NCBI GenBank assembly: GCA_002172485.2 | Contig: NHFP02000003.1 | Location: forward strand, 253,205-317,204 | DNA length: 64,000 nucleotides | Source of the DNA: Crocinitomicaceae bacterium TMED114 | GTDB lineage: Bacteria > Bacteroidota > Bacteroidia > Flavobacteriales_D > Sanyastnellaceae | Direction: 5' to 3' | Shown here: positions 7,850 to 58,409 of the stretch, piece by piece | Layout of the letters: each line of letters starts with the position of its first letter | Position numbering within the stretch: position 1 is the stretch's first letter | Position numbers and translations under genes: made by a program | Notes under the pieces: model-generated | Told to the model about the DNA's origin: nothing | Seen by the model: the letters and a program-made list of their open reading frames with translations, nothing else | Databases searched by the model: none

Positions 7850-8133
7850 TCCCGCTCACTGAGGGATGACATCCTGGAGCCTGACGATTGTCAGCGGCTT
7901 CGCCGGCCCATTCCTACACATTGGTGGTGTTTGCCTTTCACCTCCTCATCCGAATCGCCATGAACACTCCTTGCCTCCACTGCCCCGCCCCATGCGGCCT
8001 CAAAAAGACACCAAAAAACCTCATTATCAGTGGGTTAAACCACCTGCGCTCCACGATTATCCTCGCTCGACGAAAAAATTCACGGTCCGGTAGGGATGCG
8101 CCTACCTTAAAGGAGAGCCAAATCCTTAACACC
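7850..8133. other. Intergenic region upstream of the giant secreted protein
   Basis: 284 bases with no convincing gene. It is locally A-rich (8010-8080) compared with its neighbours, which fits a promoter region. A TACCTTAA box lies at 8103-8110, overlapping an AAAGGAGAG sequence that would act as a Shine-Dalgarno-like element 5' of the ATG at 8134; such strong ribosome-binding sites are rare in this window. The in-frame extension toward 7888 lacks a signal peptide and I do not regard it as coding. Confidence 0.5.
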
Positions 8134-11100: not shown

Positions 11101-14100
11101 TCCGCCTTCATCCCGGGTGACATGTACATCCCCGGTGATATGTACATCCCCGGTGACATGTACACGCCGAGCTCGCCCATCGACCCCGATGGACTGGACA
11201 TCGACTTCAACGACCTCATCCCCATCGACCCGACCCTTCCGGGCATCGGGTACAACACCTGGGACTTCACCAATTCCCTTGGGGGCAGTACCAATCTAGG
11301 GGGAGATGACGTTTTGACGACCACGCCGACCTCGGCGGACGACTGCGACATCCTGCAGGACATTCCCGCGGGCAACCACTACGACAACGGTGTACTCGGC
11401 GCCGCCGCCTTTGCCCTGAATGGCAACACCTCCATTCCGATCACGGAGACGGGTCAGGTCTGTCCAGACCACTACAACTACCTGACCGAGGTCACCCTTG
11501 AGGTCTTCAACACCGCGGCGCTCTTTGCACAGGAAGAGGAGGAGTATCCCATGGGCGAATGGACGCCGAACGATGGCGGGGAGGACGAATTCCCCATGAG
11601 TGAGTGGACGCCGTTCACCTTTGAGGGCACCAACCTGCTGACCGACGCCACGCTGCAGCCGTTCGACGCCGGCACGACGGTGGAGGACCTCGTGATCGAC
11701 TACTACGATGGGTACGGAGACGGCTCCGGCTCCTGGACCATCACGGATGTGCAGGGCACCGTTGTCGCCAGTGGAGCCATGCAAGGAAGCGGTACGGATG
11801 GAGGAGCGCCCACATCCAACAGTGGCATCGTGTCGTTGGCGCCTGGAAGCTACACGTTCCACTGGGATGTGGACTGTTTCGGAGCGTATGACAATTCCGG
11901 ACTGCAGCTGAGTTTGAACGGCCTGAATCTGCTGAGCTTCACCCCAGGAACAGTGACGCCTGGCATCATCTCAGTGGACTTCACCGTTCCCGGCATTGTG
12001 ATCGTGCCCCCTTCCGCCTCTGTGGACACCACGTGCGATGCCGTCTTCACCCATGACTTCATGGTGGCGGGTCCGCTGCCCCCGAGCACACCGGGTACCT
12101 ACATCGCTACAGAAGACAACATCCAACTCGGGTTTGAGATGTTCTTTGACGGTTTTGGCACCACCTATGGTGCGGCTTCCGTCACACCTGCTCTGCCCGC
12201 GGTTGGGTCCGGACAGGTGTTGACCACCGGCAACATCTTGGCCGTGTATGACATTTCGGCCTTCCCGAATGTCAACGAGGTCAGCTTTGTCTTCTTTGAC
12301 GGAGCCGGAATCGAGAACCTTCAGGTCAATGGACACGCCCTGCTCACCGGCGAGCTGGAGACCATGCCGACGGCCGTGGCTCCGGGCGTGACCATGTCGG
12401 TCACCACCTCGGCTTACCCCGGCTATCAGACCGGTACGGTGGTGCTGACCGGAAACGTACAGAAGCTCGAGGTTGGCGGACAGCAGTTCTTCGTGGACCA
12501 CATCTGTGTGAAGCACGACGGCACGGTCATCCAAACACCCAATTCGGGTGGATGCACCGCCACATGCGACGTGTTTACAGGGTTTGACCTGCTCACGGCT
12601 GGAGACCGCTATGGCGACCTCGCAGAAGGAGCCACCATCAGCGTGGCGCCGGGGACACAAGCCACCACCAGCGACGGCGTGCCCATCTACCTCGAACCGC
12701 TCCACGACTTTGCTTTGACTTACTACAACTACATGGCGGTCGACGCCCACTACGGCGGCTGGGGTACCGGAATGTCTCTGTGGACCAACAACATCACTGC
12801 ACAGTTCGACATCCAATCCATCGTGGATGTGACCGACACGGTTTGCATCGAATTCCGCGATGAAGGCGGATTCGAGAACCTGTGGATCAACGGGGCTGCA
12901 CCCGCTACCAGCCCGAATGGCTACGGCGGACTGATGGTCTTCAATGGAGCCGTCATCGGCGGCGTGCAGGTGCAGGTCACAGGAGCCAATGTGGGGTATG
13001 CCTTTGAGGGCACCCTCACCCTGATCGGCGACGTGGACAAGCTCTCCATTGGCGGCCAGGAACTCTGGCTGGACAACCTCTGCATCAGCGAGGGTGATGG
13101 AACGGCGGTCCCGGACATCACAACCGTGGACGACACCACCTTCCTCGACGGGGTCGACATCCAGCTCACCAGTCTCGACGCCGACGGATGCCAGTCCCTG
13201 CTGTCCATCGACCTCGGCCTCTGGGAAGACCAGGTCGACTCCCTCGGCATCAGCCTCACCGACGAGGATGGCACCGTCGCGGGCAGCGTCCAGAATCTCG
13301 GTGGAGGACAATTCCTCCTCTCCGGGTCCAGCCTGACCCCGCTGTCGATCAACCTCAGTGTCTTCGTCCTGCAGACCATCCCTGTGCTGGTGATGGAAAT
13401 CCCGGGAATCATCGACATTCCTGACTGTCCGATTGACATTCCCTGTTTCGCCCACGCCGCCTTCGCCGCGATGGACATCGGCAATTGCGTGACCGAATTC
13501 AACTACATCGGAACGGCGGGCAACCTCGACTGGACGTTCGATGGCGTTCCGGTGCCGGCAGGAAACGTCTTTACCCACCCCATCGCGCAACCGGGCCAAC
13601 TCGTCTGCGTGACCGTCACAGACTTCAACGATCCGAACTGCACCGACACCTACTGCCAGTATGTGAGCGCAGACTGTGGTGGAGGAACGGACCAGATTGA
13701 CAGCTGCGACGTGGAGTTCACCCATGAGCTGATGCCCTTCGGCCCCGTCACCATCCCGGGTCCGGGAGTGATCGTGGAGACAGAGGACGGCATCGACCTG
13801 TCCTTCCAAGACATCGTGTACATCGATGGGTCGACCAACTTCGGCACCGCCGACATCATGAATGCCCAACCTGAAGCCGGTGACGGACAGGTGCTGTGGT
13901 TGAACAACATCTCCGCCGTCTACGACCTGACCGGTGTCGGTGCCGTGGAGGAGGTCAAGTTCGAGTTCATCGACTATGGCGGCCTCGAGAACCTGCGCAT
14001 CAACGGCCAGGCGCTCGTGGACGACATTGACAACATGGGTGGAGCTGCCCTCGGTGGCGCCAATGTGTTCGTGGCCTACAACACCTACATCGGCTTCATC

Positions 14101-15120
14101 GCCGGCGAGGTGATCATCACCGGCAACGTCCAGGAGTTGGCGGTGGCCGGACAGGAGTTCTACATCGACAATGTCTGTGTCATCACCGGAGACGAGACGG
14201 CCTGCGCCGACACTGACGCCGACGGCATCTGCGACGAGGACGAAGTGGCCGGATGCACCAACGCCGGTTCGATCAACTACGATCCGAACGCCACGGACGA
14301 CGACGGCTCCTGTGACGATGGCAGCACCACGGCCAACGACACCACGGAGATCATCACGCCCAACGGCATCGTCTGCCCGGTCAACTGCGATTGGCTGGTC
14401 GACTTCGAGTCCGAGCCGCTCGGCGCAACCTGGGGTGCAACCAATGGCGTCCCGCAAGGCAGCTACATGTACACCGACAACGGCATCGACCTCTATGTCG
14501 ACGAGCTGAACAGCGCCTTGTACGGCGTCACCTACGTCCACAACCTGGTGACGGGCTCACCGTGGGCCGCCTTCGGTGCCGGACAGGTGCTGCACACCAA
14601 CAACGCCACGGTCACTTTCGACCTCGAAGCGGTCACGACGGACTCCGTGTGCTTGGACATCCTGGACTTCGGCGGGTTTGAATTTCTCGAGGTCAATGGC
14701 GTGAGCTACAGCTCCTTCAACGGATACGGCGAACTCGCCGCAGCCCCGATGATGATGGGCGGTGTCCTCGTCCAAGTCGTCGGCAACCCCATCATCCAGA
14801 TGACCTCCAGTGGCTTGCAAACGGTCGGCTTCAATGGCCGCCTGGTGCTCCACGGCAACGTGGACAAGCTGGAGATCGGTGGACAGGAATTCTGGGTCGA
14901 CAACCTCTGCATCGGCGAAGGTGCGGCGATCACCCCGGTCGTTCCTGGCTGCACATACGAAGGCGCAGGCAACTACGACGCCGAGGCCAACCTCGACGAC
15001 GGAAGCTGCATCCTGCCCGAGGTGAACTCCTGCCCAACGGACATCAACGGCGATGGCGTGACCTCCGTGCCCGACCTTCTCGAATTGCTCGGCCAGTTCA
15101 GCGAAGTTTGCGACGAGTGA
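8134..15120 (+). CDS. Giant secreted multi-domain protein (2328 aa) with four copies of an unrecognised domain
   Basis: The start at 8134 gives a clear signal peptide (residues 1-27, hydrophobic core ending ASPTQAQ). Residues ~28-530 are a secreted region of beta-rich character with no family I recognise, followed by Cys-containing Ig/PKD-like stretches to ~1290. Four diverged repeats of ~165-180 residues then start near residues 1301, 1478, 1858 and 2085, each ending in a version of GNVxKLxIGGQEFxVDNLCI. Asp-rich, calcium-binding-like inserts with GxCxxxxxxNYxxxAxxDDGSC patterns follow the third and fourth copies. The extreme C-terminus (2300-2328) is a single dockerin-like EF-hand segment (DINGDGVTSVPDLLELLG). 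No T9SS sorting domain is visible. A cell-surface or matrix role is inference. It is monocistronic, closed by a strong terminator. Confidence 0.8.
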   Translation: MISRYLNALPAVISFALTLLMASPTQAQLHDVLVEPNNVVYSSTTEIQDGTEHMLVASTISNEATDNSLPQVRISRVKTDGTISWEKDYAQETGWRAAHVMDIGDETGVLIGVNPSLVNTGAARSIVMTFDLNTGAVLATAEIKENVAANASEKGLVLIHGVYRNDKLALTGWLGGTSGLQLNEQRVAVLVEIDVPDASQTSITPNWTHAIDSFNNPDGADYDMGAHVLDVPGVGYFISGSANAFYDNPVTSGYHQAPLAALVEYDGTQAWSKVTPYWYPGEGDNEPIVAQNQRHAVASCAAVLSAAGPNNPNQLSLVQTVNWVRNRGLTTLHYHIDGSAVEARGLHLDGAYTNPGAETSLKGYSMYRRINATSDTEVIIAGYVNDPEYLDSDPDTEEKDRVPFLMAVELTGTVTSDYLIDHTIYAGSPSTNYGDDFGIHAANSQQGQQPIIFHPEMMDLREAALGYGLIGHRRTHDIPTVFDPSMIHVNSAGTDVFGGLPGCIEFTHPMTIEFPVVAPFTPFIEDINLTGAPIPMDTSTPSTTPTPCDEYSTCDVNLTYSLVAVNCSTYTITVGNAGSTPMADLDLTFDVDVDGVIEQTGVADGSDGSGNPSFTRAYPEGVLTFVEVALNCQGLDYTQIVAINPDCGGDCTPNNDLAAALTSVSTDLCSIEYGLLGNVTPVTDADITWTLSGTAVPAADGQWSPSFTGSVEDVAAAYADGIYTVELCATVICPDGTTNTQCLTITLTVEAPDFGLDMWLYCGEGCWGGWTGTRAAITFDMALFDLDEADYDAEVCFSDGTTLPIDLDMPRSYIKCFSGFTFFKKACLKIYEEGELAAGGDPCYEVCDSETCLTLEPIPFDLAAALIPDLHFNASTCSIEAGALPGSVTSRTQIMAFDTPFPGGNDAVAFISAFLEGEDFADQAAYQNFGNALGSYQASDCEYVLDAELTHAVVACPPDTSGPLYWQAAALAAGPNAIMIGAQPEVQLVSAFIPGDMYIPGDMYIPGDMYTPSSPIDPDGLDIDFNDLIPIDPTLPGIGYNTWDFTNSLGGSTNLGGDDVLTTTPTSADDCDILQDIPAGNHYDNGVLGAAAFALNGNTSIPITETGQVCPDHYNYLTEVTLEVFNTAALFAQEEEEYPMGEWTPNDGGEDEFPMSEWTPFTFEGTNLLTDATLQPFDAGTTVEDLVIDYYDGYGDGSGSWTITDVQGTVVASGAMQGSGTDGGAPTSNSGIVSLAPGSYTFHWDVDCFGAYDNSGLQLSLNGLNLLSFTPGTVTPGIISVDFTVPGIVIVPPSASVDTTCDAVFTHDFMVAGPLPPSTPGTYIATEDNIQLGFEMFFDGFGTTYGAASVTPALPAVGSGQVLTTGNILAVYDISAFPNVNEVSFVFFDGAGIENLQVNGHALLTGELETMPTAVAPGVTMSVTTSAYPGYQTGTVVLTGNVQKLEVGGQQFFVDHICVKHDGTVIQTPNSGGCTATCDVFTGFDLLTAGDRYGDLAEGATISVAPGTQATTSDGVPIYLEPLHDFALTYYNYMAVDAHYGGWGTGMSLWTNNITAQFDIQSIVDVTDTVCIEFRDEGGFENLWINGAAPATSPNGYGGLMVFNGAVIGGVQVQVTGANVGYAFEGTLTLIGDVDKLSIGGQELWLDNLCISEGDGTAVPDITTVDDTTFLDGVDIQLTSLDADGCQSLLSIDLGLWEDQVDSLGISLTDEDGTVAGSVQNLGGGQFLLSGSSLTPLSINLSVFVLQTIPVLVMEIPGIIDIPDCPIDIPCFAHAAFAAMDIGNCVTEFNYIGTAGNLDWTFDGVPVPAGNVFTHPIAQPGQLVCVTVTDFNDPNCTDTYCQYVSADCGGGTDQIDSCDVEFTHELMPFGPVTIPGPGVIVETEDGIDLSFQDIVYIDGSTNFGTADIMNAQPEAGDGQVLWLNNISAVYDLTGVGAVEEVKFEFIDYGGLENLRINGQALVDDIDNMGGAALGGANVFVAYNTYIGFIAGEVIITGNVQELAVAGQEFYIDNVCVITGDETACADTDADGICDEDEVAGCTNAGSINYDPNATDDDGSCDDGSTTANDTTEIITPNGIVCPVNCDWLVDFESEPLGATWGATNGVPQGSYMYTDNGIDLYVDELNSALYGVTYVHNLVTGSPWAAFGAGQVLHTNNATVTFDLEAVTTDSVCLDILDFGGFEFLEVNGVSYSSFNGYGELAAAPMMMGGVLVQVVGNPIIQMTSSGLQTVGFNGRLVLHGNVDKLEIGGQEFWVDNLCIGEGAAITPVVPGCTYEGAGNYDAEANLDDGSCILPEVNSCPTDINGDGVTSVPDLLELLGQFSEVCDE
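11110..11163 (+). repeat. Three tandem 18-bp units encoding IPGDMY
   Basis: Three in-frame near-identical 18-base units give IPGDMY x3 inside the giant secreted protein (residues ~993-1010). The second copy has a synonymous change (GAT for GAC), so the amino-acid repeat is exact. Confidence 0.95.
12034..14925 (+). repeat. Four diverged ~170-residue protein repeats
   Basis: Copies begin at about 12034, 12565, 13705 and 14386. Shared features in order are a starting Cys, a GxGQVLxxxN turn, a FDL/YDL strand, an F.D.GG.ENL.ING core, and a final GxVxLxGNVxKLxIGGQEF then VDNLCI. Copies 1 and 3 resemble each other more (both start C-D-x-x-FTH), as do 2 and 4. The pattern suggests duplication of a two-domain unit. 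Confidence 0.85.
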
Positions 15121-42965: not shown

Positions 42966-45257
42966 TCAGTCCTGCTTCAGGATGCGCTGGCGGGTGCCAT
43001 CGTCCAACTGCAGCACATACACGCCGCCGGGCTGACCCACGAGCGACAACCCACGGCTGGCGGGAAAGCACAGCACCTCGCGGCCTGCCGCATCCAAGAG
43101 TCGGCCGGAGACCCGGTCACCTGTCCACCGAATCCAGTCCGCCGTAGGGTTCGGCGCGATTTGACGCTGCCCGGGCGACGGTACATCGTCCCCGCCCAAG
43201 ATGATCGCATAGTTGTTGGTGGCGTCCGCTGTGGGGGTGGCAAACCACACCCAATAGTCCGCTCCATCCGGAACCCGACCCAACGATGCGTCCTGCTCGG
43301 ACGCGCCAAAGGCGAAGAAGTCCAGGATGACCCAGAACCCTCCGGCTTCGTTCCATTCCAACAGGGCAATCTCCTCACCTGAGGCAGACAGGGTGAACGG
43401 CGCGTGAAACGGACCTTGCTCGGGGTCGTTGTCGAGCCAGTAGAACGCCCAATCCCCGGCGGCGAGCGAGCCTTCCGGCAATGCGTATTTGTTGGGATTA
43501 TTGAGGTTGTCCGTCAGGTACTTTCCACCGAGGCCCACCGGCGCGGAACCGGCATTGAAGAGCTCCACCCAATCGTCGAATTCGCCGAAAGCATCGGAGA
43601 CATTGTTGGCGTTGGAACTCATCAACTCATTGATGACCAATTCAGATGGCGACATTCCGACCGTCACGAGCTCGGGCGTGCAGGGAATCCACCGCTCCAA
43701 TCCCCCGGAGCTTGTGACTTGAACGTGGTACGTCACGGTGGTCCAATTCCACTGAACGGGCACCTTCACGCCCCATGTTCCATCCCCGGGCTGCCGGTCG
43801 CCGTGCTCCCCATCGTCGAACATGTCGAAGGGCACTGCTCCACTGCCGGGATCCACCCAACAGACCACCTCCACTTCGTCAGCGCCGGCGTCCACAATCG
43901 TGCGAACGCGAAGCGAATCCAAGACCGGCGCATTGTCCTCCACTTCGTGAACGACGAGAACCGGAACCTCCTGTTCCAACTGCCATTCCAGAGCGGCCAA
44001 GCGGGTGTCGAGCCAAGGCAGGATGCCGAATTCCACATGCCCACCGGATGCTTGACCCAACGACTGCTGGAAATTCTCGTAAGTGAACCCGAAAGACAGC
44101 GGGTAGTACCCATCGCTTTGGATGGCGGGATCGAGCAAGGCATGCCGGGGGGCCAGGTAGGCCTCCACGCTGTCCGGGTGCGCCCACTCGGTCATCATCC
44201 TGCGGAGGTAATGCGTGTACCAGTCCCGGTATTCAGGCACCGCCATCAGCCGATCGTAGAGCGGCCGGTACTCCGTCGACCACGTGTAAGGATCGCGGGT
44301 CTCCCATTCCTGGTCGAGCCAATCGATGCCCCACGTGTTGTCGAGGTCGTAGGGGATGTACTCGAACAGGCCCGTCTGCGGATTGTGATAGAGGTAGAAA
44401 TTGTTCTTGTTGCCAGCGTAGCCATCCCAGTTGCCACTGACCACATCCAAGGCTTGGACCTTGAGGAAATCGGCCACATTGAATACCTCCTCCAGCGCGC
44501 ACTGAAAATCGGCGTCCGGCGTGTTGTTGAGCACGTCGATGAACTCGGCGATGTCGGTGTAGTCGTCGGCGACCTTGTTGGTCTTGAGCTCATAGGCGCG
44601 GCGCCCATTCACCTCGAACTTGTAGTCATCCGGTGTCTGGCTCATGTACTCCAGTGAGGCGGGCCAGAGGCACTTGTAGAAGTTGCCGGCATCCTTGTCG
44701 TAGTACTCCTCCACGAATTCCTCATCGAAGTGCTCGGTGTTGAGGTAGGCCCCCAGGTATTCGCCGTTGAGCTCCACTTTCACGTGGCTCGTTCGGGAGC
44801 CTGCCAGGCCCATTCTGCGCAAGATGTTCCAACTCAAACCCGCGCGGAGCAAAGACGGGTCATTCTGGTTGGCGTTGACGTTCAGTTTCTCAAGGTCCAC
44901 GTACTTCTGGCCGGGGACAAAGGCATTGAAATCCACCTTGAAGCTCTTCTTGGGAGAAAACAACGAGGTGTTGCCCCGGAGCCGCACCCCCACGTTGGGA
45001 ATGATGGTGTCCACGGTCGAGCTCTGGTAATGCACAGTCGCCGGGAACGGGTTGGTCGCGGCGTAGTCCACATCGCCAAAGAGCATCGCATCGACACTGT
45101 CTGGGTCCATCGTGATGGACAGGGTGGCCAATTCGTCCTGCACGTAGGCCGGCCCGAACGGCGGAATGTCAGTCTGGGCCCAAGTCGGGCCTGCGAAAAA
45201 GACGGCCAAGGCGCCCCATAGGGTTGCTCTACCCAAGATCTCGTTCAGGTTCTCCAC
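42966..45257 (-). CDS. Secreted CotH-kinase/lamin-tail-domain protein, T9SS cargo
   Basis: A 763-residue protein with a GTG start at 45257. Signal peptide 1-27 (ending TWAQ). Residues ~35-400 form a CotH-type kinase domain: PNVGVRLRGNTSL, KVELNGEYLGAYLNTEHFD, GNKNNFYLYHNP and YDLDNTWGIDW, which hold the family's ATP/metal-binding Asp and Asn. A lamin-tail domain follows (LVINELMSSNANNVSDAFGE, near 538-660), then a T9SS type A sorting domain (IAPNPTADWIRW near 697; end RQRILKQD). Known CotH kinases phosphorylate secreted coat proteins. Target here is unknown. It follows the repeat protein at 45285 by 27 bases. Confidence 0.9.
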   Translation of the reverse strand: MENLNEILGRATLWGALAVFFAGPTWAQTDIPPFGPAYVQDELATLSITMDPDSVDAMLFGDVDYAATNPFPATVHYQSSTVDTIIPNVGVRLRGNTSLFSPKKSFKVDFNAFVPGQKYVDLEKLNVNANQNDPSLLRAGLSWNILRRMGLAGSRTSHVKVELNGEYLGAYLNTEHFDEEFVEEYYDKDAGNFYKCLWPASLEYMSQTPDDYKFEVNGRRAYELKTNKVADDYTDIAEFIDVLNNTPDADFQCALEEVFNVADFLKVQALDVVSGNWDGYAGNKNNFYLYHNPQTGLFEYIPYDLDNTWGIDWLDQEWETRDPYTWSTEYRPLYDRLMAVPEYRDWYTHYLRRMMTEWAHPDSVEAYLAPRHALLDPAIQSDGYYPLSFGFTYENFQQSLGQASGGHVEFGILPWLDTRLAALEWQLEQEVPVLVVHEVEDNAPVLDSLRVRTIVDAGADEVEVVCWVDPGSGAVPFDMFDDGEHGDRQPGDGTWGVKVPVQWNWTTVTYHVQVTSSGGLERWIPCTPELVTVGMSPSELVINELMSSNANNVSDAFGEFDDWVELFNAGSAPVGLGGKYLTDNLNNPNKYALPEGSLAAGDWAFYWLDNDPEQGPFHAPFTLSASGEEIALLEWNEAGGFWVILDFFAFGASEQDASLGRVPDGADYWVWFATPTADATNNYAIILGGDDVPSPGQRQIAPNPTADWIRWTGDRVSGRLLDAAGREVLCFPASRGLSLVGQPGGVYVLQLDDGTRQRILKQD

Positions 45258-47345: not shown

Positions 47346-48263
47346 ATGAGGCGCCCCATGAATCGGTCTTTGCCCCTGTCCACCACATTCGATACCCTGC
47401 TCCTCGAGGGAGGCAGTTTGCGGTGCGCCTTCACGGCGGGGGTCCTGGACGCCCTCGCAGCAGTGAACGATCGAGGTTTCAAGCGGGTTTACGCAGTGTC
47501 CGCCGGGGCCATGGCGGTCACCAGCTTCCTGTCCGGGCAACGCAAGCACTTCATCGATGTGGCCACTTCGGTCATCGCCAACGGTCAATTCATTCGGTTT
47601 TCCTCGGCCCTCTCCGAGGAGGGGATCATGAATTTGGCGCACCTGTTCGACCATGTCCGCCACCACCACCCGCTGGACCTCGATGCGGCCCGGGACTTCG
47701 CCGCCAACAAGGAGGTCCGGTTCGTCACCACGGATGCGGAAACCGGCGCGGCCTGCTTCATGGACCCCACCCAAGGCGACTGGTTGCGCATCCTTTGGGC
47801 TTCGGCCACCTTGCCGATGGTGACCCGCGGGCGAATCAAAGTTGCCGGCCGCTGGATGTTCGACGGCGGCATGTCGGACGCCCTCCCGTTGGATGCGGCG
47901 TTGGATGCCGGCGCGCAAAGCCTGCTCGTTGTTCGAACACGGCCGACCGGGATGCACATCCAGCAGAGTTGGATGGACTACTTTGCTTCGGTCTGGCACC
48001 GCGAAAATCCTGCGATTGCCGCCTTGTATGAACATGGTCACGATCACTACAATGCCACGGTGGACCGGCTGGCCACCGGTGGTGAATCTGGACGGCGCTA
48101 CCTCGAGATCGCACCGGATGCACCGCTGAAATCCGACGGGTATCGGATTCAGGCGGACAGCCTGTGGGCCGATTACCACCATGGACTCAGCAAAGCGCTC
48201 GACTTGGTGGCCGCCCACTCGGAATTCTCCAAATCGGACAACAAGCACAATCCAACCCCCTGA
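47346..48263 (+). CDS. Patatin-like phospholipase
   Basis: A 305-residue protein from ATG 47346 (a second ATG at 47358 is equally possible). It shows the patatin oxyanion loop LLEGGSLRCAFTAGVLDAL, the nucleophile elbow YAVSAGAMAV (Ser near residue 55; A replaces the first G of GxSxG), and a DGGMSDALPLDAAL motif near 174-187 with the catalytic Asp. It is the YjjU-like subgroup. No signal peptide, so likely cytoplasmic and lipid-active. A TATTTTAT box lies at 47340-47347. Confidence 0.88.
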   Translation: MRRPMNRSLPLSTTFDTLLLEGGSLRCAFTAGVLDALAAVNDRGFKRVYAVSAGAMAVTSFLSGQRKHFIDVATSVIANGQFIRFSSALSEEGIMNLAHLFDHVRHHHPLDLDAARDFAANKEVRFVTTDAETGAACFMDPTQGDWLRILWASATLPMVTRGRIKVAGRWMFDGGMSDALPLDAALDAGAQSLLVVRTRPTGMHIQQSWMDYFASVWHRENPAIAALYEHGHDHYNATVDRLATGGESGRRYLEIAPDAPLKSDGYRIQADSLWADYHHGLSKALDLVAAHSEFSKSDNKHNPTP

Positions 48264-48367
48264 TTTCCCCGCCTTCAGGGTGTGTTGTGAAATCGTGAAG
48301 CCCAAGCCTACCGGTGGGCGCAACTGTTTGTATCGCACTACATTCGCGTTCGATTCACAACCCAGCC

Positions 48368-49252
48368 ATGCGCAAGCTTTTCTTCCTGGCGATCGTCGCC
48401 CTGTCCACCCAGATGCTCACTGCCCAATGCAACGAGCTGTTCATCTCCGAATACATCGAGGGATGGTCCAACAACAAAGCCCTTGAAATCTACAATCCGA
48501 CGGGCAACGCCATTGACATGACGGACTACCGCCTGGAGCGTTATGCCAACGGTGCCACGGCGGCACAGGACAATCAAAAGACCGACCTGACCGGCACCAT
48601 CGAGCCCGGTGGCGTCCTCGTCTACGTCATTGACAAGCAAGACCCCGATGGAGTGGACTTCGAGGCTCCGGTCTGGGACGAACTCGCTGAACAAGCTGAC
48701 ATCTGGCTGAACCCCGACTATCAGGAGAACAACACCATGTACTTCAACGGCAACGACGCCATGGTGCTCCGCAAAATCTCCACCAATTCACCGGTCGACA
48801 TCTTCGGTGTGATTGGGGAAGATCCCGGTTCCGCAGGCTGGGATGAGATCACGCAAAACCACACCCTCGTGCGCCGCCCGGAAGTGACGGGTGGGGACAC
48901 GCAAGCCGTGGACGAATTCGACGTGCTCGCCGTGTGGGATTCTCTGGAGGTCAACACCTTCGACCAATTGGGCTTCCACGTGTGCGACTGCGTGACGTCC
49001 GTCGAGGAGACGCGCACCAGCCAAGTGAAGGCCTTCCCAAACCCCTTCCACGACCGCTTGGACCTACTCGCTGCCCAGCCCATCGCGGGTGTCGTGGTGC
49101 GCACCCTCGCCGGTGCTGAGGTCCTGCGTCCTGTCACCAACGGCCGCCGACAGTTGCGTCTGGACCTGGCCGACCTGCCAACCGGGGCTTACCTCGTGGA
49201 GGTTCGCCTGACCGACGGCAGTGTCACGCGCCACCAGGCTGTCAAGCACTGA
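48368..49252 (+). CDS. Secreted lamin-tail-domain protein, T9SS cargo
   Basis: A 294-residue protein from ATG 48368, signal peptide 1-19 (MRKLFFLAIVALSTQMLTAQ). Residues ~20-190 form a lamin-tail domain of the kind found at the N-terminus of ExeM-like nucleases: CNELFISEYIEGWSNNKALEI, NPTGNAIDMTDYRLERYANG, TGTIEPGGVLVYVI, and ITQNHTLVRRPEV. A T9SS sorting domain ends the protein (FPNPFHDRLDLLA near 224; end VTRHQAVKH). No catalytic domain is present. The TonB-dependent receptor follows after 13 bases, so they are cotranscribed. TACATTCG at 48339-48346 is the likely promoter box. Confidence 0.9.
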   Translation: MRKLFFLAIVALSTQMLTAQCNELFISEYIEGWSNNKALEIYNPTGNAIDMTDYRLERYANGATAAQDNQKTDLTGTIEPGGVLVYVIDKQDPDGVDFEAPVWDELAEQADIWLNPDYQENNTMYFNGNDAMVLRKISTNSPVDIFGVIGEDPGSAGWDEITQNHTLVRRPEVTGGDTQAVDEFDVLAVWDSLEVNTFDQLGFHVCDCVTSVEETRTSQVKAFPNPFHDRLDLLAAQPIAGVVVRTLAGAEVLRPVTNGRRQLRLDLADLPTGAYLVEVRLTDGSVTRHQAVKH

Positions 49253-49265
49253 TTCTGCGCTTCCA

Positions 49266-52200
49266 ATGAAGTCGATTCTCGCTTTGTTCCTGGCCCTCGG
49301 GCTGGGCACCTTGACCCTGCATGCCCAGAATTGCACCGTCAGCGGAATGGTCAGAGACGGGCTCTCCGGCGACCCCTTGGTTGGGGCATATGTCCAAGCC
49401 GGCGGCCTGATGACCGCCACCGACATCGATGGACGCTACACCCTTTCCGTACCGACGGGCAAGCGGGAATTGACCTTCAGCTACATCGGATACGCCGCCC
49501 GGACAGTGGACGTCGACTTGACCGGGGCCTCGCGCACCCTCGATGTCAAGCTCGAGTCCCTCATCCTCGAGGAGGCCATCGTGGCCGCCGACATCGCCAT
49601 CGACCGCAAGACGCCGGTGGCCTTCACCAACGTCCTGCCCGCCCAGATTCAGGAAGAGCTGGCCGGCCGGGATTTGCCTCTGGTGCTCAACACGACGCCT
49701 GGCGTCTACGCCACCCAGCAGGGTGGTGGTGATGGCGATGCGCGGGTGACGATCCGTGGATTCGACCAGACCAACCTCGCCGTCATGGTCGATGGTGTCC
49801 CCATGAACGACATGGAGAACGGCTGGGTCTACTGGAGCAACTGGGCCGGTTTGGACCTCGTGGTGCGGACCACCCAAGTCCAGCGTGGACTCGGTGCCAG
49901 CAAGCTGGCCATCCCTTCCGTGGGCGGCACGATCAACATCCTGACCGGTGGGGACGAATCCGGCAATGGCAGCCTCACCCTGCTGAGTGAAGTCGGCAAC
50001 TACGGGTACCACCGAAACAGCTTGTCCGGTGTCTTCGGCTCGCAAGAGAAAGGCTTCCTCCACTTTGTCGGCTCCTACCGGACCAACCAAGGATTTGCCG
50101 CCGGCCTCGAATCGGAGACTTACTCCTACTACCTCAAGGGCCGCAAGACCTTCGGCAACCACAACTTGAGTTTCACCACGTTCGGTGCACCACAGCGCCA
50201 TGGCCAGCGGTCCTATCAGATGCAGGTGCATGAATTCGATGCCGACCTCGCTCGCGAGCTGACCGACGACGAGGGCCGGGTGGAACTAGAAGGCATCCTC
50301 GCCGACGCCGATGAAGACGACCTGGTTTCCCGCGGTCGGGACTTCAATGAGTTCATCGTCAACTACCAGGAGGTTGACTACGACTACAACGAGGAAACGG
50401 GCATGGTGGACACCACCTACGGCCGCACGCGCCGCTACAATGCCCGTCAGAACTATTACTTCAAGCCCATCTTCACCGTCCGCGATGTATGGGCCCTGAG
50501 CGACAAGAGCTCACTGACGACCACAGCCTATGCCAGTTTCGGAACAGGTGGAGGAGAAGCGCTCGCCAGCACCCCAGGCACGCGACTCAGCGACGGCACC
50601 CTCGACCTGCAGCCAACTTGGGACAGCCACCAGCTCTTCGAATTCGGCCCCAACGGCCTCAATGTGGATGCCAACGGAGAGCGCAAGGGCTCCAACTTCA
50701 TTCGGACCGCCCACAATGACCACCGCTGGTACGGTGCCCTGTCCAACTTCAACACCGCCCTCAACGACGACCTCAGCCTGAGTGCCGGGGTCGATGTCCG
50801 CCACTACACGGGCAGCCATTACCGGACCATCGGGGACCTGTTCGGCGCGGATTACTACGATGCGCCGGATGACCGCCGCGATCAGAATGCCGACTTTGAT
50901 GCGCCGCTGCGCGAAGGCGACAAGTATTTCTACCACGACGACGGCCAGGTCGCATGGGGCGGCACCTACGCCCAACTGGAGTGGGACAAGACGAACTACA
51001 GCGCGTTTGTCAACCTCTCCGGAGCGCAGAGCTGGTACCGCGGCATCGACTACTTCCGCCCGAAGGTGGTCACCCTGGAAGGCACCACGTACGAGGTCCG
51101 CTCTACCGACGAATGGCGCGTGCTGGGCGACAACGATTGGTCCATCGGTGAACTCGCGGACGGCACCCTCTTGACGGCAGACCATCCCGGACTGGAGACG
51201 TACACCACGGATTGGGAGCGCCTCAACAGCTTCACGGTGAAGGCCGGCGGCAACTACAACTTCAACGAGTGGACCAGCGCCTACACCAACCTCGGTTACT
51301 TGAGCCGGGCGCCCCTCTTCAACTCCGTTTTTGACCTCAACAACGACGTGATTGAGGGATACGAGAACCAGTACGTGAAGGCCGTGGAACTCGGAGTGAA
51401 GTATGCCCAAGGCCGCTTTGCCTCCAACCTCAATGCCTATCGCACAGGGTGGGAGAACAAGGCCATCAACCGGTTCTACAGCGTGTCCGGACTGTGGCAG
51501 GATCCAAACCTGAGCGTGTACTCGGACACCACGACGACCGCAGGCCGGGAAAACCTTCTGCTTTTGGCCCAGGATGACCGGGCGTTGGAAGACGTTGACT
51601 GGGGCACAGAGGCCGCCACACTGGTGGAGCAGGCCGACCGCAACCTCGGCTACAACCTGCTCAACGCGGACGCTGTCCACAGCGGGGTCGAGTGGGACTT
51701 TGCCTATGACGTCACCAACAAGCTCGATGTCCAAGGCGTCCTTTCCTGGGGCAATTGGCGGTGGACCAGCAACGAGCGGGTGGACCTCATCAACAGCTCG
51801 GACAACGGGTTCATCACGCGCACGGACAATGGCACCGTGGCCGACACCCTCGTCAACCTCAACGGGGTCAAAGTCGGGGACGCCGCCCAGCGGCAGATCA
51901 GTGCAGCCGTGAGCTACCGCCCCAAGCGCGGAACCTACTTCTCCCTGCGGAGTACGTGGTTCTGGCAGCATTACTCCGACTTCTCCCCCGGAGACGTCAT
52001 CACCGAGGGCGAGCCCCGCGATGTATGGGTGACGCCGGGCTACAACCTCATCCACTTCAATGCGGGCACCGTCTTCGATGTGAGCGACAATGCCCTGCTT
52101 CGGTTGCGCCTGAGCGTGACCAATCTGCTCGACGAACTGTACATCGCCGACGCACGGAACAATTCGCAGTACGCCCCCAACCCTTACGGACCTGATGGCG

Positions 52201-52286
52201 GCAGCGGCCGCGCCGAGGTCTTCGTCGGTCCGCCGCGCATGATCCGCGTGAGCGCCACCCTCGAACTCAAGGGACTCCAAAACTGA
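49266..52286 (+). CDS. TonB-dependent outer-membrane receptor with carboxypeptidase-regulatory-like N-domain
   Basis: A 1006-residue receptor from ATG 49266. Signal peptide 1-20; a CarboxypepD_reg-like Ig domain near 22-105 (TVSGMVRDGLSGDPLVGAYV, ...DGRYTLSVPTGKRELTFSYIGY); a plug near 115-235 (GGGDGDARVTIRGFDQTNLA; SVGGTINILTGG); then a beta-barrel to the C-terminus. No SusD partner is adjacent, so it is not a canonical Sus system. Its substrate is inferred from its neighbours (a lamin-tail protein before and an OB/phospholipase-D protein two bases after). Confidence 0.93.
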   Translation: MKSILALFLALGLGTLTLHAQNCTVSGMVRDGLSGDPLVGAYVQAGGLMTATDIDGRYTLSVPTGKRELTFSYIGYAARTVDVDLTGASRTLDVKLESLILEEAIVAADIAIDRKTPVAFTNVLPAQIQEELAGRDLPLVLNTTPGVYATQQGGGDGDARVTIRGFDQTNLAVMVDGVPMNDMENGWVYWSNWAGLDLVVRTTQVQRGLGASKLAIPSVGGTINILTGGDESGNGSLTLLSEVGNYGYHRNSLSGVFGSQEKGFLHFVGSYRTNQGFAAGLESETYSYYLKGRKTFGNHNLSFTTFGAPQRHGQRSYQMQVHEFDADLARELTDDEGRVELEGILADADEDDLVSRGRDFNEFIVNYQEVDYDYNEETGMVDTTYGRTRRYNARQNYYFKPIFTVRDVWALSDKSSLTTTAYASFGTGGGEALASTPGTRLSDGTLDLQPTWDSHQLFEFGPNGLNVDANGERKGSNFIRTAHNDHRWYGALSNFNTALNDDLSLSAGVDVRHYTGSHYRTIGDLFGADYYDAPDDRRDQNADFDAPLREGDKYFYHDDGQVAWGGTYAQLEWDKTNYSAFVNLSGAQSWYRGIDYFRPKVVTLEGTTYEVRSTDEWRVLGDNDWSIGELADGTLLTADHPGLETYTTDWERLNSFTVKAGGNYNFNEWTSAYTNLGYLSRAPLFNSVFDLNNDVIEGYENQYVKAVELGVKYAQGRFASNLNAYRTGWENKAINRFYSVSGLWQDPNLSVYSDTTTTAGRENLLLLAQDDRALEDVDWGTEAATLVEQADRNLGYNLLNADAVHSGVEWDFAYDVTNKLDVQGVLSWGNWRWTSNERVDLINSSDNGFITRTDNGTVADTLVNLNGVKVGDAAQRQISAAVSYRPKRGTYFSLRSTWFWQHYSDFSPGDVITEGEPRDVWVTPGYNLIHFNAGTVFDVSDNALLRLRLSVTNLLDELYIADARNNSQYAPNPYGPDGGSGRAEVFVGPPRMIRVSATLELKGLQN

Positions 52287-52288
52287 CC

Positions 52289-54475
52289 ATGACCCGTTTT
52301 CTCCTCTCGGCTTCGGCCCTCTTTTGCGCCTTCTCTCTCTCCGCGCAGGACAACATCCTCGACGTCCGCAACAACTACAACATCGGTGATGTGGTGACCG
52401 TAACCGGCGTGGTCACCAGCGACGACAACCTTGGTTCCGTGCGCTACATCCAGGACGCCACGGCCGGCATCGCCCTCTACCCAGGCGGTGACTGGTCGGA
52501 TTGGGACGCCGAACCGGCCATCGGGGACTCCCTGACTGTGACCGGCGAAATCACCGAGTACAACGGTTTGCTCGAAATCGGTCCGAACCTGAGCGCTGTG
52601 GTCTTTGAGGGCACCGGTACCCTGCCAGAGCCGCTGGTCATCGGCGGCGCCGACATGGATGAGTCGCTGGAAGGCCAATTGGTCCGTGTCAATGGCGTAA
52701 CCTTTCCGTTGGCCGGCCAGGAAATCACGGGCAACAACACCTACGATTTCACCGCCGATGGCCAGACGGGCGTCATTTACGTCCGTACCAGCAACAGCCT
52801 CGTCGGCGAGACCCTCACTGGCTGTGCCGTCGACCTGCTCGGCATCGTCTCCCAGTTTTCCTTTAACGGGACGGGGGGATACCAGCTGCTCCCGCGGGGT
52901 CCGGTCGACCTGATTCCCGCTGCGGGCATTTGCTACACCTCCCCGGTGGTGCAATCCGACATGACCACGAGCAGCTTCACCTTGAGCTGGACGACGGACC
53001 TGGCCTCAGAAGGCATGGTCGAATACGGCCTGACCGAAGCGCTCGGCACCGTGGCCATGGGCGACGCAGGCACGACAGACCACAGTGTGGCCCTCACGGG
53101 CCTCGAAGCCGGTCAGATCTACTACGCCCGGGCCATCTCGACCCTGCCCGATGGGGAAAGTGCCACCTCCCCCATCCGTCCTTACGCCACGGTCTCCGGT
53201 TCGTCGGGGGACATCCACGTCTACTTCAACGGCTCGGTGGATGCCTCCGCCGCCACGGAAGAAGTCGCCCAATCGCTTGGCGCCGACCTCAACGACACAG
53301 TGGCCGCCTGGATCCTGTCCGCACAGCACACCCTCGATGTGGCCGCCTACAACCTCAACGACCAAACGTTGATCGGCGCGTTCAACGACGCCGCGGCCAA
53401 TGGTGTGGAGATCCGCTGGATCTACGAGGGGCAGAACGCCAACACCGGCCTTGGGGCCCTCGAAGGTTCCATTCCCACCCACCCCCGCACCGACGGACAG
53501 GGCAGCGGCATGCACAACAAGTTCATCATCGGCGACGCGGACTACACCGAATCGGCCTTCGTGCTCACGGGATCGACGAACCTTACCACAGGCAACTTGG
53601 TGCAGGACTTGAACAACGTCATCGTCTTCGAGGACCAGAGCCTCGCCCGCGCCTACACCATCGAGTTCCATGAAATGTGGGGATCGGATGGTCCGACGCC
53701 CGACGAGAGCAACGCCAAGTTCGGACCGGACAAGACCTGGAACACCCCGGTGGACTTCCTGATAGGTGGAAGCCCGGTGGAGCTGTACTTTTCCCCGTCC
53801 GACGGCACGACCAACGCCATCCGTCAGGAGATCGAGTCAGCAGACAGCGAATTTGAATTCGCCCTTCTCGCCCTGACTCGGGATGACTTGGGCGAGGCCA
53901 TCGCCGAACTGGGCGCCAGTTTCTTCGTGAATCCCATCGGGGCCATCGAACAGGTCAACACGACTGGAAGCGAATATGACAACCTGCAGTCCGCAGGCGT
54001 TCAGGTCTACGCCCACAATGTCAGCCCCGACCTGCACCACAAATACGCCATCGTCGACCACGCCAGCCCGGCCTTCGACCCTGTGGTCATCACCGGCTCG
54101 CACAACTGGTCTTCCTCCGCGGAAAACGTGAACGACGAAAACACAGTGCTTGTGCACGACGCCCGCATCGCCAACCTGTACCACCAAGAGTTCCGGGGCA
54201 TGCTCATCGACCTCGGTGTGATTTCCTCCGTGAAGGACGAGGTCCGCGGGGCCCGCGTGTTGCTCTACCCGAACCCTGTCGAAGGCACCTTAAATGTGCA
54301 GTGGTTGGAGGGCGAGCCGAACGGTCCCCTGGTGCTGCGCGACATGGCCGGCCGCGCCGTGTTGAGTGCCCACATGACGTCGGGAACAGCCCGAGTGTCC
54401 ACGGCCCACCTGGCGCCTGGAGTCTACACCGTCAGTTTCGGGGACGGCACCACCTCCCGCGTGGTCCTCCGCTGA
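52289..54475 (+). CDS. Secreted OB-fold / fibronectin III / phospholipase-D-type protein, T9SS cargo
   Basis: A 728-residue protein, signal peptide 1-20. Residues ~22-210 hold a YhcR/ExeM-type OB fold (GDVVTVTGVVTSDDNLGSV, IQDATAGIALYPG, GDSLTVTGEITEYNGLLEI). A fibronectin-III-like segment (~215-305) follows, then a phospholipase-D domain with two HKD motifs: HNKFIIGD near residue 409 and HHKYAIVD near 583 (HxKxxxxD complete in both). A T9SS sorting domain ends it (YPNPVEGTLNVQW near 660). Both catalytic halves look intact, so it should hydrolyse phosphodiesters, probably extracellular nucleic acid (phospholipid is the alternative). Confidence 0.92.
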   Translation: MTRFLLSASALFCAFSLSAQDNILDVRNNYNIGDVVTVTGVVTSDDNLGSVRYIQDATAGIALYPGGDWSDWDAEPAIGDSLTVTGEITEYNGLLEIGPNLSAVVFEGTGTLPEPLVIGGADMDESLEGQLVRVNGVTFPLAGQEITGNNTYDFTADGQTGVIYVRTSNSLVGETLTGCAVDLLGIVSQFSFNGTGGYQLLPRGPVDLIPAAGICYTSPVVQSDMTTSSFTLSWTTDLASEGMVEYGLTEALGTVAMGDAGTTDHSVALTGLEAGQIYYARAISTLPDGESATSPIRPYATVSGSSGDIHVYFNGSVDASAATEEVAQSLGADLNDTVAAWILSAQHTLDVAAYNLNDQTLIGAFNDAAANGVEIRWIYEGQNANTGLGALEGSIPTHPRTDGQGSGMHNKFIIGDADYTESAFVLTGSTNLTTGNLVQDLNNVIVFEDQSLARAYTIEFHEMWGSDGPTPDESNAKFGPDKTWNTPVDFLIGGSPVELYFSPSDGTTNAIRQEIESADSEFEFALLALTRDDLGEAIAELGASFFVNPIGAIEQVNTTGSEYDNLQSAGVQVYAHNVSPDLHHKYAIVDHASPAFDPVVITGSHNWSSSAENVNDENTVLVHDARIANLYHQEFRGMLIDLGVISSVKDEVRGARVLLYPNPVEGTLNVQWLEGEPNGPLVLRDMAGRAVLSAHMTSGTARVSTAHLAPGVYTVSFGDGTTSRVVLR

Positions 54476-54647: not shown

Positions 54648-56177
54648 ATGCTCAAGCATACCCTTCTGATGCCCTTGCTTTTCCTCGGGCTCATTTTTAA
54701 CGCACAGACGACCGTCGTCGATGTGGTGGTCAACAGCGAAGACCACACCACCCTCGAAGCTGCTGTTGTGGCCGCTGACCTGGCTGGCACCCTGAGCGGC
54801 GATGGCCCGTTCACCGTGTTCGCCCCGACCGATGCTGCATTCGACGCCCTGCCCGCCGGAACGGTGGACGCCCTGCTCATGGACCCGGCTGGTGACCTGA
54901 CCGACATCTTGCTCTACCACGTCCTCGGTGCCGAGGTGATGAGCGGCGATCTCGCGCCCACCCAAACCGTGGCCACGCTCAACGGCGATTCCATCACCGT
55001 CACCGTCGACATGGACATGGTCTCCATCAACGGTGTCGCTATGGTCATTGCCGCCGATGTCGCTGCAGACAATGGCGTGGTGCACGTCATCGACGCCGTG
55101 CTGCTTCCGCCGGCCGATCCGACTGTGGCCGACATCATCACGGACAGCCAGGACCACACCGTCCTTGCCGCTTTGTTGGACAGCACCGGCCTCGACGAGA
55201 CCCTCGCTGGTGAGGGCCCGTTCACGGTTTTTGCTCCGACTGATGCTGCCTTTGACCTCATCGACCCGCTCGAGCTCATCGACATCCTGCAGGACAACGA
55301 CCTTCTGACGTCCATCCTGACCTACCACGTGGCCGGCAGTGCCGTTATGAGCGGTGACCTGTCCGACGGCCAGATCATCACCACCGTCAATGGTGCGGAC
55401 GTGACCATCTCCATCATGGACGGAACCGTCATGGTCAATGAGGCCACTGTCATCATTGCCGACCATGAAGGTTCCAACGGCGTGGTGCACGTCATCGACG
55501 TGGTGCTCTTCCCGCCGGCTCCCAACCCGGCTACCGTGGTGGACATCATTGTCGACAGCCCGGACCACAACCTGCTCGAGCTCGCCGTTGGGGCAGCCGG
55601 CCTCGTAGACGCCCTCTCTGGTGAAGGCCCCTTCACTGTCTTCGCTCCAACCGATGCCGCCTTCACCGCCCTTGTGGCTTCTCTCGACATCACGGCGGAC
55701 GAGCTGCTCGCCCTCGAGAGCCTGAGCGACATCCTGAAGTACCACGTGGTGGGTGCGGCAGCCCTCAGCACAGACTTGAGCGATGGTCAATTGCTCACGA
55801 CCCTTGAGGGAAGCGATGTAGAAATCAGCATCGACATGGGCGTGATGGTCAACGACGCCAATGTTGTGGAGGCCGACCTCGTGGCCGACAACGGTGTCGT
55901 GCACGTCATCGACATGGTTCTCAGCCTCCCGAGCGGTGTAGATCAGGTGGCCCTCGCCGACCTGTTCAACGTGTTCCCGAACCCGACCACGGACGTCCTC
56001 CGCTGGAACGGTGTGGCCGTGGACCGCATCCGCGTCATCGACACGCAAGGCCGCGTTCGCCTCGAAACCACCAACGCCGTGGGCAGCCTCGACCTGTCCA
56101 GCCTCGAGAACGGGGTCTTCATGGTGGTCATCGAAGCTGAGGGCCAACGTGCCGTGAAGTCCGTGCTCAAGCGCTGA
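54648..56177 (+). CDS. Secreted triple fasciclin (FAS1) domain protein, T9SS cargo
   Basis: A 509-residue protein, signal peptide 1-19. Three FAS1 domains, about 21-152, 154-288 and 292-425, each with a TVFAPTDAAF H1 motif and a DNGVVHVIDxVL-type H2 motif. The C-terminus is a T9SS sorting domain (FPNPTTDVLRWNG near 442, end KSVLKR). FAS1 proteins are surface adhesion modules. Monocistronic, with its own terminators before and after. Confidence 0.95.
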   Translation: MLKHTLLMPLLFLGLIFNAQTTVVDVVVNSEDHTTLEAAVVAADLAGTLSGDGPFTVFAPTDAAFDALPAGTVDALLMDPAGDLTDILLYHVLGAEVMSGDLAPTQTVATLNGDSITVTVDMDMVSINGVAMVIAADVAADNGVVHVIDAVLLPPADPTVADIITDSQDHTVLAALLDSTGLDETLAGEGPFTVFAPTDAAFDLIDPLELIDILQDNDLLTSILTYHVAGSAVMSGDLSDGQIITTVNGADVTISIMDGTVMVNEATVIIADHEGSNGVVHVIDVVLFPPAPNPATVVDIIVDSPDHNLLELAVGAAGLVDALSGEGPFTVFAPTDAAFTALVASLDITADELLALESLSDILKYHVVGAAALSTDLSDGQLLTTLEGSDVEISIDMGVMVNDANVVEADLVADNGVVHVIDMVLSLPSGVDQVALADLFNVFPNPTTDVLRWNGVAVDRIRVIDTQGRVRLETTNAVGSLDLSSLENGVFMVVIEAEGQRAVKSVLKR

Positions 56178-57143: not shown

Positions 57144-58409
57144 GTGCTCCCATCAAAGAACAGCGGCCAAAGACGGCTCACCCAAGGAGTCAAAGCCTTC
57201 GGTGGTTTCATATTGTGCCTGTCCGTAATGAGCATGGTGCACATGGCGGTCTACAGTCCGGCCTACACCTTCCCCGAGACCGACCCTTTTTCCGGAACGG
57301 TTTGGTACAACCCCTACCAAAAGCTGGATGGATCGGATTGGCAATTGGGCAACTTTCAGGTCCAATCCGAAGTCTGGGGGGGCATCACCAACGGCCGAAA
57401 CAACACGCCCCAGCGCATATTCGATGTCTACTCCGAATTGGGATACGACATCATCACCATTTCGGACTACATGTCCATCAACCGGTTCACCACACCGGAC
57501 CGACCGCTGATCCGCGTGTATGAGCACGGCTATGGCGCCTTCAAGACGCACCAAGTCTGTCTGGGCTCCGAATCGGTGGTCGCCTTGGACTATCCGTTGC
57601 TTCAGTCCCGCCACAACAAACAGCACATCCTCCGCAGACTGTCCAATGCCTCTGGAGCGGTGGCCATTGCCCATCCCAGTTTGCGCAAGGCGTATTCACT
57701 GGAGGACATGGCCCTGTTGACGGACTATCAATTGGTCGAGGCAAGCTCCAAATTTCGAATGAGCATGCCCCACTGGGATGCGGCCCTCTCAGCCGGCAAG
57801 CCTGTTTTCATCCTCTCCAATGACGACGCCCACGACTTGGACAAACCCTGGGAATACGGACGCAACGCGACCATGGTTCACACGACGTCGCTTCAGGAAG
57901 AGGACGTCATTCATGCCCTGGTCACGGGAAAGGCGTACGCTTTTCTTCCCGGAACCGGAGAAAATGCGACCCATCAGGAGAAGGTGGCGCACCTGTCCGA
58001 GCGTTCAGAATTGCGCAGTTGCAAAATTCATGGCGATTCCCTGTGGATTGAGGCCAGCCTGCCCATTCTCGAGGCGCGCTTCATTGGACAAAACGGCGAC
58101 ACCCTGATGACACAAGCGTGGCAACAGGGCGCCCGGCGCGCAGGTTTTGCCCTGAAACCTGAGCACACTTATGTTCGGGCAGAGATGGAACTCACCAATG
58201 GCGACGTGTACATGTTGAACCCCGTCTTCAGAACGGAACATGGCGTGCCCCCTGTTCCTGCTGTGGCTGCGGTCAACCTGCCACTGACCCGGACGATTCG
58301 AATCGGTTTTGGTCTGTGCCTGCTCTTTGCTGTGCTTCTCTTCGGGAGGAAGCGCCGAATTCGCCTGGGCCTTGGCCGCAGCAAAACAGTCCTTCGCGCC
58401 AGCGCATGA
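57144..58409 (+). CDS. Membrane-anchored PHP-fold protein with a degenerate active site
   Basis: A 421-residue protein with a GTG start at 57144. An N-terminal helix (~19-38) and a C-terminal helix (~385-402), followed by a basic tail, anchor a PHP-fold ectodomain. Recognisable segments are GNFQVQSEVWGG near 69-80, YDIITISDYMSIN near 102-114, AIAHPSLRKAYSLED near 173, and VFILSNDDAHD near 218-228. In active PHP enzymes the first segment carries HxH and the second TDH; here they are QxQ and SDY, so two or more metal ligands are lost. It is coupled by ATGA to the GT39 gene. Confidence 0.8.
   Translation: MLPSKNSGQRRLTQGVKAFGGFILCLSVMSMVHMAVYSPAYTFPETDPFSGTVWYNPYQKLDGSDWQLGNFQVQSEVWGGITNGRNNTPQRIFDVYSELGYDIITISDYMSINRFTTPDRPLIRVYEHGYGAFKTHQVCLGSESVVALDYPLLQSRHNKQHILRRLSNASGAVAIAHPSLRKAYSLEDMALLTDYQLVEASSKFRMSMPHWDAALSAGKPVFILSNDDAHDLDKPWEYGRNATMVHTTSLQEEDVIHALVTGKAYAFLPGTGENATHQEKVAHLSERSELRSCKIHGDSLWIEASLPILEARFIGQNGDTLMTQAWQQGARRAGFALKPEHTYVRAEMELTNGDVYMLNPVFRTEHGVPPVPAVAAVNLPLTRTIRIGFGLCLLFAVLLFGRKRRIRLGLGRSKTVLRASA

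Follow-up and report, generated by a model that had tools for sequence, protein, structure and literature searches.

We analysed a 64,000-nucleotide stretch of DNA (hereafter, the window) from the metagenome-assembled genome (MAG) of Crocinitomicaceae bacterium TMED114 (contig NHFP02000003.1, positions 253,205 to 317,204). The MAG comprises 1.73 Mb and is 67.6 percent complete; in a search of named genome contigs, the closest records were Flavobacteriales MAGs. The window carries a cassette of three plus-strand genes, A, B and C, with intergenic gaps of 13 and 2 bases in the open reading frame (ORF) table. They encode a lamin-tail domain (LTD) protein, a TonB-dependent receptor (TBDR) and a phospholipase D (PLD)-type protein, the first and last with sorting domains of the type IX secretion system (T9SS):

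48368..49252, plus strand: gene A, 294 aa; signal peptide, LTD and T9SS type A sorting domain (ORF; Pfam, NCBIfam)
49266..52286, plus strand: gene B, 1006 aa; TBDR with an N-terminal CarboxypepD_reg domain (ORF; PF13620, PF13715, PF07715)
52289..54475, plus strand: gene C, 728 aa; signal peptide, OB/DUF5689, FN3-like domain, double PLD (HKD) nuclease-like domain and T9SS sorting domain (ORF; Pfam, NCBIfam, AlphaFold)

This layout agrees exactly, in strand, spacing and domains, with a first-pass annotation made from the sequence alone. We propose that the cassette serves the degradation of extracellular nucleic acid and the TonB-dependent import of the products, for feeding, for transformation or for both. 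From the comparisons below we put the probability of this at about three in four.

Both A and C qualify as T9SS type A cargo, with Por_Secre_tail and TIGR04183 matches at or above the cut-offs (PF18962 for the tail of A). SprA was present in 8 of the 9 genomes searched, TIGR04189 giving no match in the window's incomplete MAG. The LTD of A (PF00932, 1.1e-13) is of the ExeM type, as A matches ExeM over the N-terminal portion of that protein (NF033680, 3.3e-19), far under the full-length cut-off; no PDB sequence matched A. The first-pass annotation had called the cassette a candidate split ExeM-like system. Indeed, as in ExeM and NucH (NF033680, NF033681), lamin-tail and OB-like domains occur together in one secreted system. 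However, we found no match to an EEP domain, the catalytic domain of ExeM and NucH, in A, B or C with Pfam or NCBIfam, and the accessory domains are distributed over two chains with T9SS export signals. Moreover, the OB region of C is a DUF5689 domain (PF18942, residues 29–207; 34.4 bits against a family cut-off of 28.6), which matched the ExeM/NucH models only marginally (0.012), and no intermediate was found. The split ExeM is, thus, better taken as an analogy that has support in the LTD alone.

Besides DUF5689 (2.6e-8) and the Por_Secre_tail, Pfam assigns PLDc_2 twice to C (1.3e-32) and a weak purple-acid-phosphatase N-terminal (FN3-like) match. C carries the pair of HxK(x4)D motifs that makes up the single active site of the PLD superfamily (positions from the alignment):

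53513..53581, plus strand: first HKD motif region of C; H409, K411, D416, G428, S429, N431
54035..54106, plus strand: second HKD motif region of C; H583, K585, D590, G603, S604, N606

Both motifs, with the GSxN that follows each, are invariant in 25 aligned homologues of C, which confirms the earlier description of them as intact, and they are present in 57 of the 61 PLD proteins of cassettes. The AlphaFold model of C (mean pLDDT 86.2) is closest to PLD3 and PLD4 (Z 31.9–33.2 over 303–326 aligned residues, ~16–17 percent identity), followed by 7e0m (31.8), vaccinia F13 (~30) and phospholipases D (~23–28). The best enzyme match in NCBIfam is the nuclease NucT (1.6e-9). PLD3 and PLD4 are reported to be 5′-exonucleases acting on single-stranded nucleic acid (PMC7857491, PMC8497607). 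C shares with them the closest fold and both HKD motifs on one chain, but adds OB, FN3-like and T9SS domains and would be a bacterial surface protein, in contrast to the lysosomal PLD3 and PLD4. Fold and nearest families point to C being a PLD-type (PLD3/NucT-like) nuclease, although a shared fold is no proof of activity.

B has the plug (PF07715, 6.4e-12) and C-terminal β-barrel of a TonB-dependent transporter, and the best PDB folds for its AlphaFold model (pLDDT 76.6) were all such transporters (Z 30–36). It scored 36 bits of 836 against the BtuB equivalog model and 32 of 925 against MxcH, and so is not assigned to the vitamin B12 or siderophore receptors. A surface binder, a TonB-dependent transporter and a secreted depolymerase in one operon are also the ingredients of SusCD-type and Pus loci. 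Unlike these, the cassette has no protein that matched the SusC family or SusD (Pfam, NCBIfam), and LTD and T9SS cargo replace the surface lipoproteins. The cassette could be a new variant of this Bacteroidota surface-digest-and-import design, here for nucleic acid, and possibly a DNA port.

To follow the gene order beyond this genome we searched for B in 60 relatives, 296 class-level genomes and the named genome contigs. Loci were picked by the receptor alone, and the genes on either side were identified with profiles made from the loci found first. A profile score >900 was reached by 145 distinct receptors, of which 122 were fully flanked; 116 of these 122 had an LTD neighbour, 112 a nuclease neighbour and 109 both. 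The predominant layouts were LTD-TBDR-PLD (55) and LTD-TBDR-Endonuclease I (50); the remainder had an LTD with PLD upstream (2), Endonuclease I with EEP (1), Endonuclease I with PLD (1), an LTD only (7), PLD without an LTD (3) or neither (3). Median spacings in the cassettes were 39 and 19 bases. By comparison, 20 other TBDR loci from the window's genome and a complete relative had no LTD, PLD, Endonuclease I or EEP neighbours (cross-matches of T9SS tails to the LTD profile being disregarded). The company of LTD and nuclease genes beside this receptor is far beyond chance. The records span Flavobacteriales, Bacteroidales, Saprospiraceae, Chitinophagales and Crocinitomicaceae, and the idea that the order occurs only in this genome, which the first-pass annotation had named as fatal to its proposal, is rejected by these loci. 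In the open-access literature we found no description of the cassette, nor any paper joining 'lamin tail domain', nuclease and TonB. One record, labelled with the gammaproteobacterial name Glaciecola amylolytica (L137 in our numbering of loci; CP034120.1), contains, as L167 does, the whole Bacteroidota cassette including the T9SS tails; its name looks wrong.

Secreted nucleases can act on extracellular DNA, and the fold of B is like that of BtuB, FecA or FhuA. It is conceivable, then, that C clears extracellular DNA in biofilm remodelling or defence, while the neighbouring receptor imports an unrelated iron or vitamin ligand. We regard this as improbable, because LTD and nuclease stand beside the receptor in ~90 percent of loci, spread over many families, and because relatives of the receptor in other families adjoin EEP nucleases and DUF5689.

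In about half of the cassettes the third gene is not PLD, and in the cases scanned it then encoded Endonuclease I (PF04231). Two loci (L040, L058) have the OB/DUF5689 domain preceding Endonuclease I in place of PLD, two others have the order reversed (L084, L089), and in L071 an Endonuclease I-LTD fusion lies beside the receptor. This fusion recalls Flavobacterium johnsoniae EndA1/EndA2 (Fjoh_4721, Fjoh_4723; FN3, LTD and Endonuclease I; PMC8115612), which are likewise exported Bacteroidota nucleases with an LTD; these, however, were reported as orphans with no receptor gene alongside, and carry Endonuclease I, not PLD. Over the 121 leaves concerned of a 225-receptor tree, PLD and Endonuclease I exchanged at least 11 times, whereas shuffled labels average 40 changes; by this count, the nuclease type is inherited yet has been repeatedly replaced. 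PLD and Endonuclease I have no common fold, and both include nucleases. The simplest substrate common to them would therefore be nucleic acid, and we consider their alternation the strongest evidence for it.

The same alternation bears on the use of phospholipids or membrane debris, for which C would be a phospholipase D and B would import either the head group of the lipid or some unrelated ligand. PLD domains do include phospholipases, the model of C also matches phospholipases D (Z 23–28; 7e0m 31.8), and a patatin-like gene lies just upstream of A. Nevertheless, the nearest enzyme matches are NucT and PLD3, and a nuclease family, Endonuclease I, stands in for PLD in roughly every second cassette. 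For the latter reason we rejected phospholipid use as the main role, and leave it only a very slight chance.

The wider kinship of B leads to natural transformation. Riemerella anatipestifer needs two proteins for it, neither being dispensable: RA0C_RS04920 (DUF5689) and RA0C_RS04915 (CarboxypepD_reg, outer membrane) (PMC8459023); mutation of tonBA or tonBB lowers it, both TonB proteins being needed for full frequency (PMC8383284). We found DUF5689 in 24 of 26 genomes of one family (Weeksellaceae, judged by genes; that of genome G309), directly 3′ of a TBDR in 20/20 loci; in 18 of these the opposite side bears a divergently oriented EEP nuclease gene. Among 20 further DUF5689 loci from other families, 19 had such a receptor and 17 an EEP gene adjacent to it. 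The EEP nuclease-TBDR-DUF5689 locus is conserved across Bacteroidota (L224–L243, L264–L283); a T9SS-tailed protein comes next in several, and PLD (L274) or Endonuclease I (L275) sometimes adjoins.

Like the Riemerella pair, the cassette has a TonB-type receptor directly followed by an exported DUF5689 protein, and the loci of the Riemerella type in most cases have a nuclease gene (EEP) next to them. The cassette differs by its extra LTD gene and by bearing the weak DUF5689/OB match on the T9SS-sorted nuclease. In a tree with 35 control TBDRs drawn from three genomes, cassette, intermediate and DUF5689-coupled receptors fell on one side of a branch, with all controls on the other (support 0.958). 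By sequence, B thus does not fall among these 35 other TBDRs; clustering with siderophore or vitamin receptors was what the first-pass annotation had named as refuting its proposal. Within this larger clade, the cassette receptors and the DUF5689-coupled receptors are each monophyletic, B belonging to a separate clade related to the Riemerella-type group. Some related receptors (L052, L053, L055, L057) adjoin asd (aspartate-semialdehyde dehydrogenase) and have no nuclease neighbour, so that a role cannot be assigned to every member of the wider clade. L195 and L196 also belong to this group, whose members often lie beside asd.

The cassette and the DUF5689-type locus exclude each other. Among 295 class-sample genomes, 71 had the cassette, 74 a strong DUF5689 gene (above ~80 bits) and none had both; 17.8 would be expected to if the two were independent, a figure that ignores phylogeny, although the exclusion is also seen inside several families. 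Within families the two alternate, for example 11 against 3 (f39), 5 against 2 (f9) and 4 against 1 (f15), as well as in three more (f1, f3, f10). As an internal control, intermediate receptors and strong DUF5689 genes occurred together in 8 of 17 genomes (manual count from tables). That cassette and DUF5689-type locus never co-occur suggests that they do the same job.

Genes for processing nucleotides lie near several of these receptors. A split 5′-nucleotidase (PF02872 and PF00149) comes after the cassette in a locus of Brumimicrobium oceani (L127), a culturable species, and a matching pair lies beside two DUF5689-type loci (L265, L271). More distant receptors are accompanied by Endonuclease I (L181, L198) or by Endonuclease I and a one-piece 5′-nucleotidase (L189). 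The window itself encodes a CNT-family (Nucleos_tra2) nucleoside transporter at 3349–4614, ~44 kb from the cassette, which would fit nucleoside uptake from the periplasm.

These genes accord with a narrower version of our proposal, scavenging only. Here C would make short products, B would import nucleotides or short oligonucleotides, the 5′-nucleotidase and the CNT transporter would finish the work, and long DNA would never cross. In its favour, the import of intact genes would hardly call for a secreted nuclease, the 5′-nucleotidase pair is linked to three loci, the CNT transporter is in the window, and F. johnsoniae exoproteins with LTD and Endonuclease I are induced by phosphate depletion (PMC8115612). 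Yet transformation depends on a related receptor locus, that of the DUF5689 type (PMC8459023), and the two loci are exclusive in the 295 genomes, as interchangeable parts would be. We give this version a little less than an even chance.

The opposite narrowing makes B the counterpart of RA0C_RS04915, a DNA port for transformation, with C nicking or resecting surface DNA like the Gram-positive EndA and feeding being secondary. Receptor kinship, mutual exclusion and the Riemerella genetics (PMC8459023, PMC8383284) speak for it. So does the complement of competence genes: ComEC was present in 5/5 genomes searched (the window's genome and four relatives), and no secretin was found in 10 of 11 genomes searched, among them those of the genus, G044 and two of the G309 family, G027 alone being positive. 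Set against this, nucleases of the Endonuclease I and PLD types that come with LTD and OB domains resemble a machinery for bulk degradation, no strain that bears the cassette is known to be competent, and direct passage of DNA through any TBDR is not known either. We consider this version rather unlikely. A broader claim, that B belongs to a phylum-wide group of TonB-powered importers of nucleic-acid strands, which come in two exchangeable forms (nuclease cassette and DUF5689/EEP locus) and account for outer-membrane passage during DNA uptake in Bacteroidota without a type IV pilus secretin, we put forward tentatively, at somewhat worse than even odds.

Degradation and import of nucleic acid, without a choice between these versions, is supported by the conserved gene order, the second nuclease family, the linked 5′-nucleotidase pair and the kinship with a transformation receptor. 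In the mechanism that we propose, T9SS would carry A (LTD) and C (OB/DUF5689-PLD) to the cell surface, where C, as a PLD3/NucT-like nuclease with two HKD motifs, would cleave DNA, RNA or both. Presumably by binding nucleic acid, the LTD and OB domains would keep the polymer or its fragments close to the receptor, and B, powered by TonB, would import oligonucleotides or longer strands into the periplasm. There the product could be handled by nucleotidases and nucleoside transporters, or by ComEC, so that a common outer-membrane step might serve feeding, transformation or both. The degradation and uptake that the first-pass annotation had suggested is, thus, strongly supported by comparison, whereas phosphorus scavenging, which it named as a purpose, is one candidate beside DNA uptake for transformation.

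Several observations weigh against our proposal. All three proteins have a strongly acidic pI (4.40, 4.65 and 4.15 for A, B and C), as do most homologues, and this gives no hint that nucleic acid is bound electrostatically. The model of B resembles BtuB, FecA and FhuA about equally, and with matches so nearly tied the predicted structure is uninformative on the ligand. Transformation of R. anatipestifer drops, rather than rises, on phosphate removal (PMC8383284). The DUF5689-type locus is equated with the Riemerella pair by domains and adjacency, not by the Riemerella sequences, and the neglect of phylogeny in the expected co-occurrence should be counted here as well.

One study counts Bacteroidota among the main recyclers of DNA in marine sediment (PMC8289736), and the route of DNA through the outer membrane in those without type IV pilus secretins is not established. 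If our proposal is correct, nucleic acid would be added to the ligands of TonB-dependent transporters, and the conserved receptor with its exchangeable nucleases would be one gene bearing on both DNA feeding and DNA uptake.

Upstream of gene A we noted one further element, matching the consensus TAnnTTTG with one mismatch:

48339..48346, plus strand: possible Bacteroidota -7 promoter element before gene A, TACATTCG

In an alignment of eight upstream regions from the genus, the relatives have TACATTTG or TAACTTTG at this position. The patatin-like phospholipase, with a DUF6363 domain, lies at 47355–48263, directly 5′ of gene A; its C-terminal end is similar in genus relatives, which suggests conservation there. 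Directly 3′ of C, at 54648–56177, is a gene for a protein with three fasciclin domains and a T9SS tail. In several genus members a gene of 410–415 aa instead overlaps or abuts the end of C (L024:3157–4404, L026, L027, L062, L065); the one scanned had no Pfam match, and the gene is absent from the window. Elsewhere in the window, an open frame of 2410 aa (7888–15120) is without any Pfam match, and 57144–58409 has a weak match to the CehA/McbA metallohydrolases (NF038032, under the cut-off). Finally, a protein with CotH kinase and LTD domains is encoded at 42966–45257 on the minus strand, a second LTD protein near the cassette.

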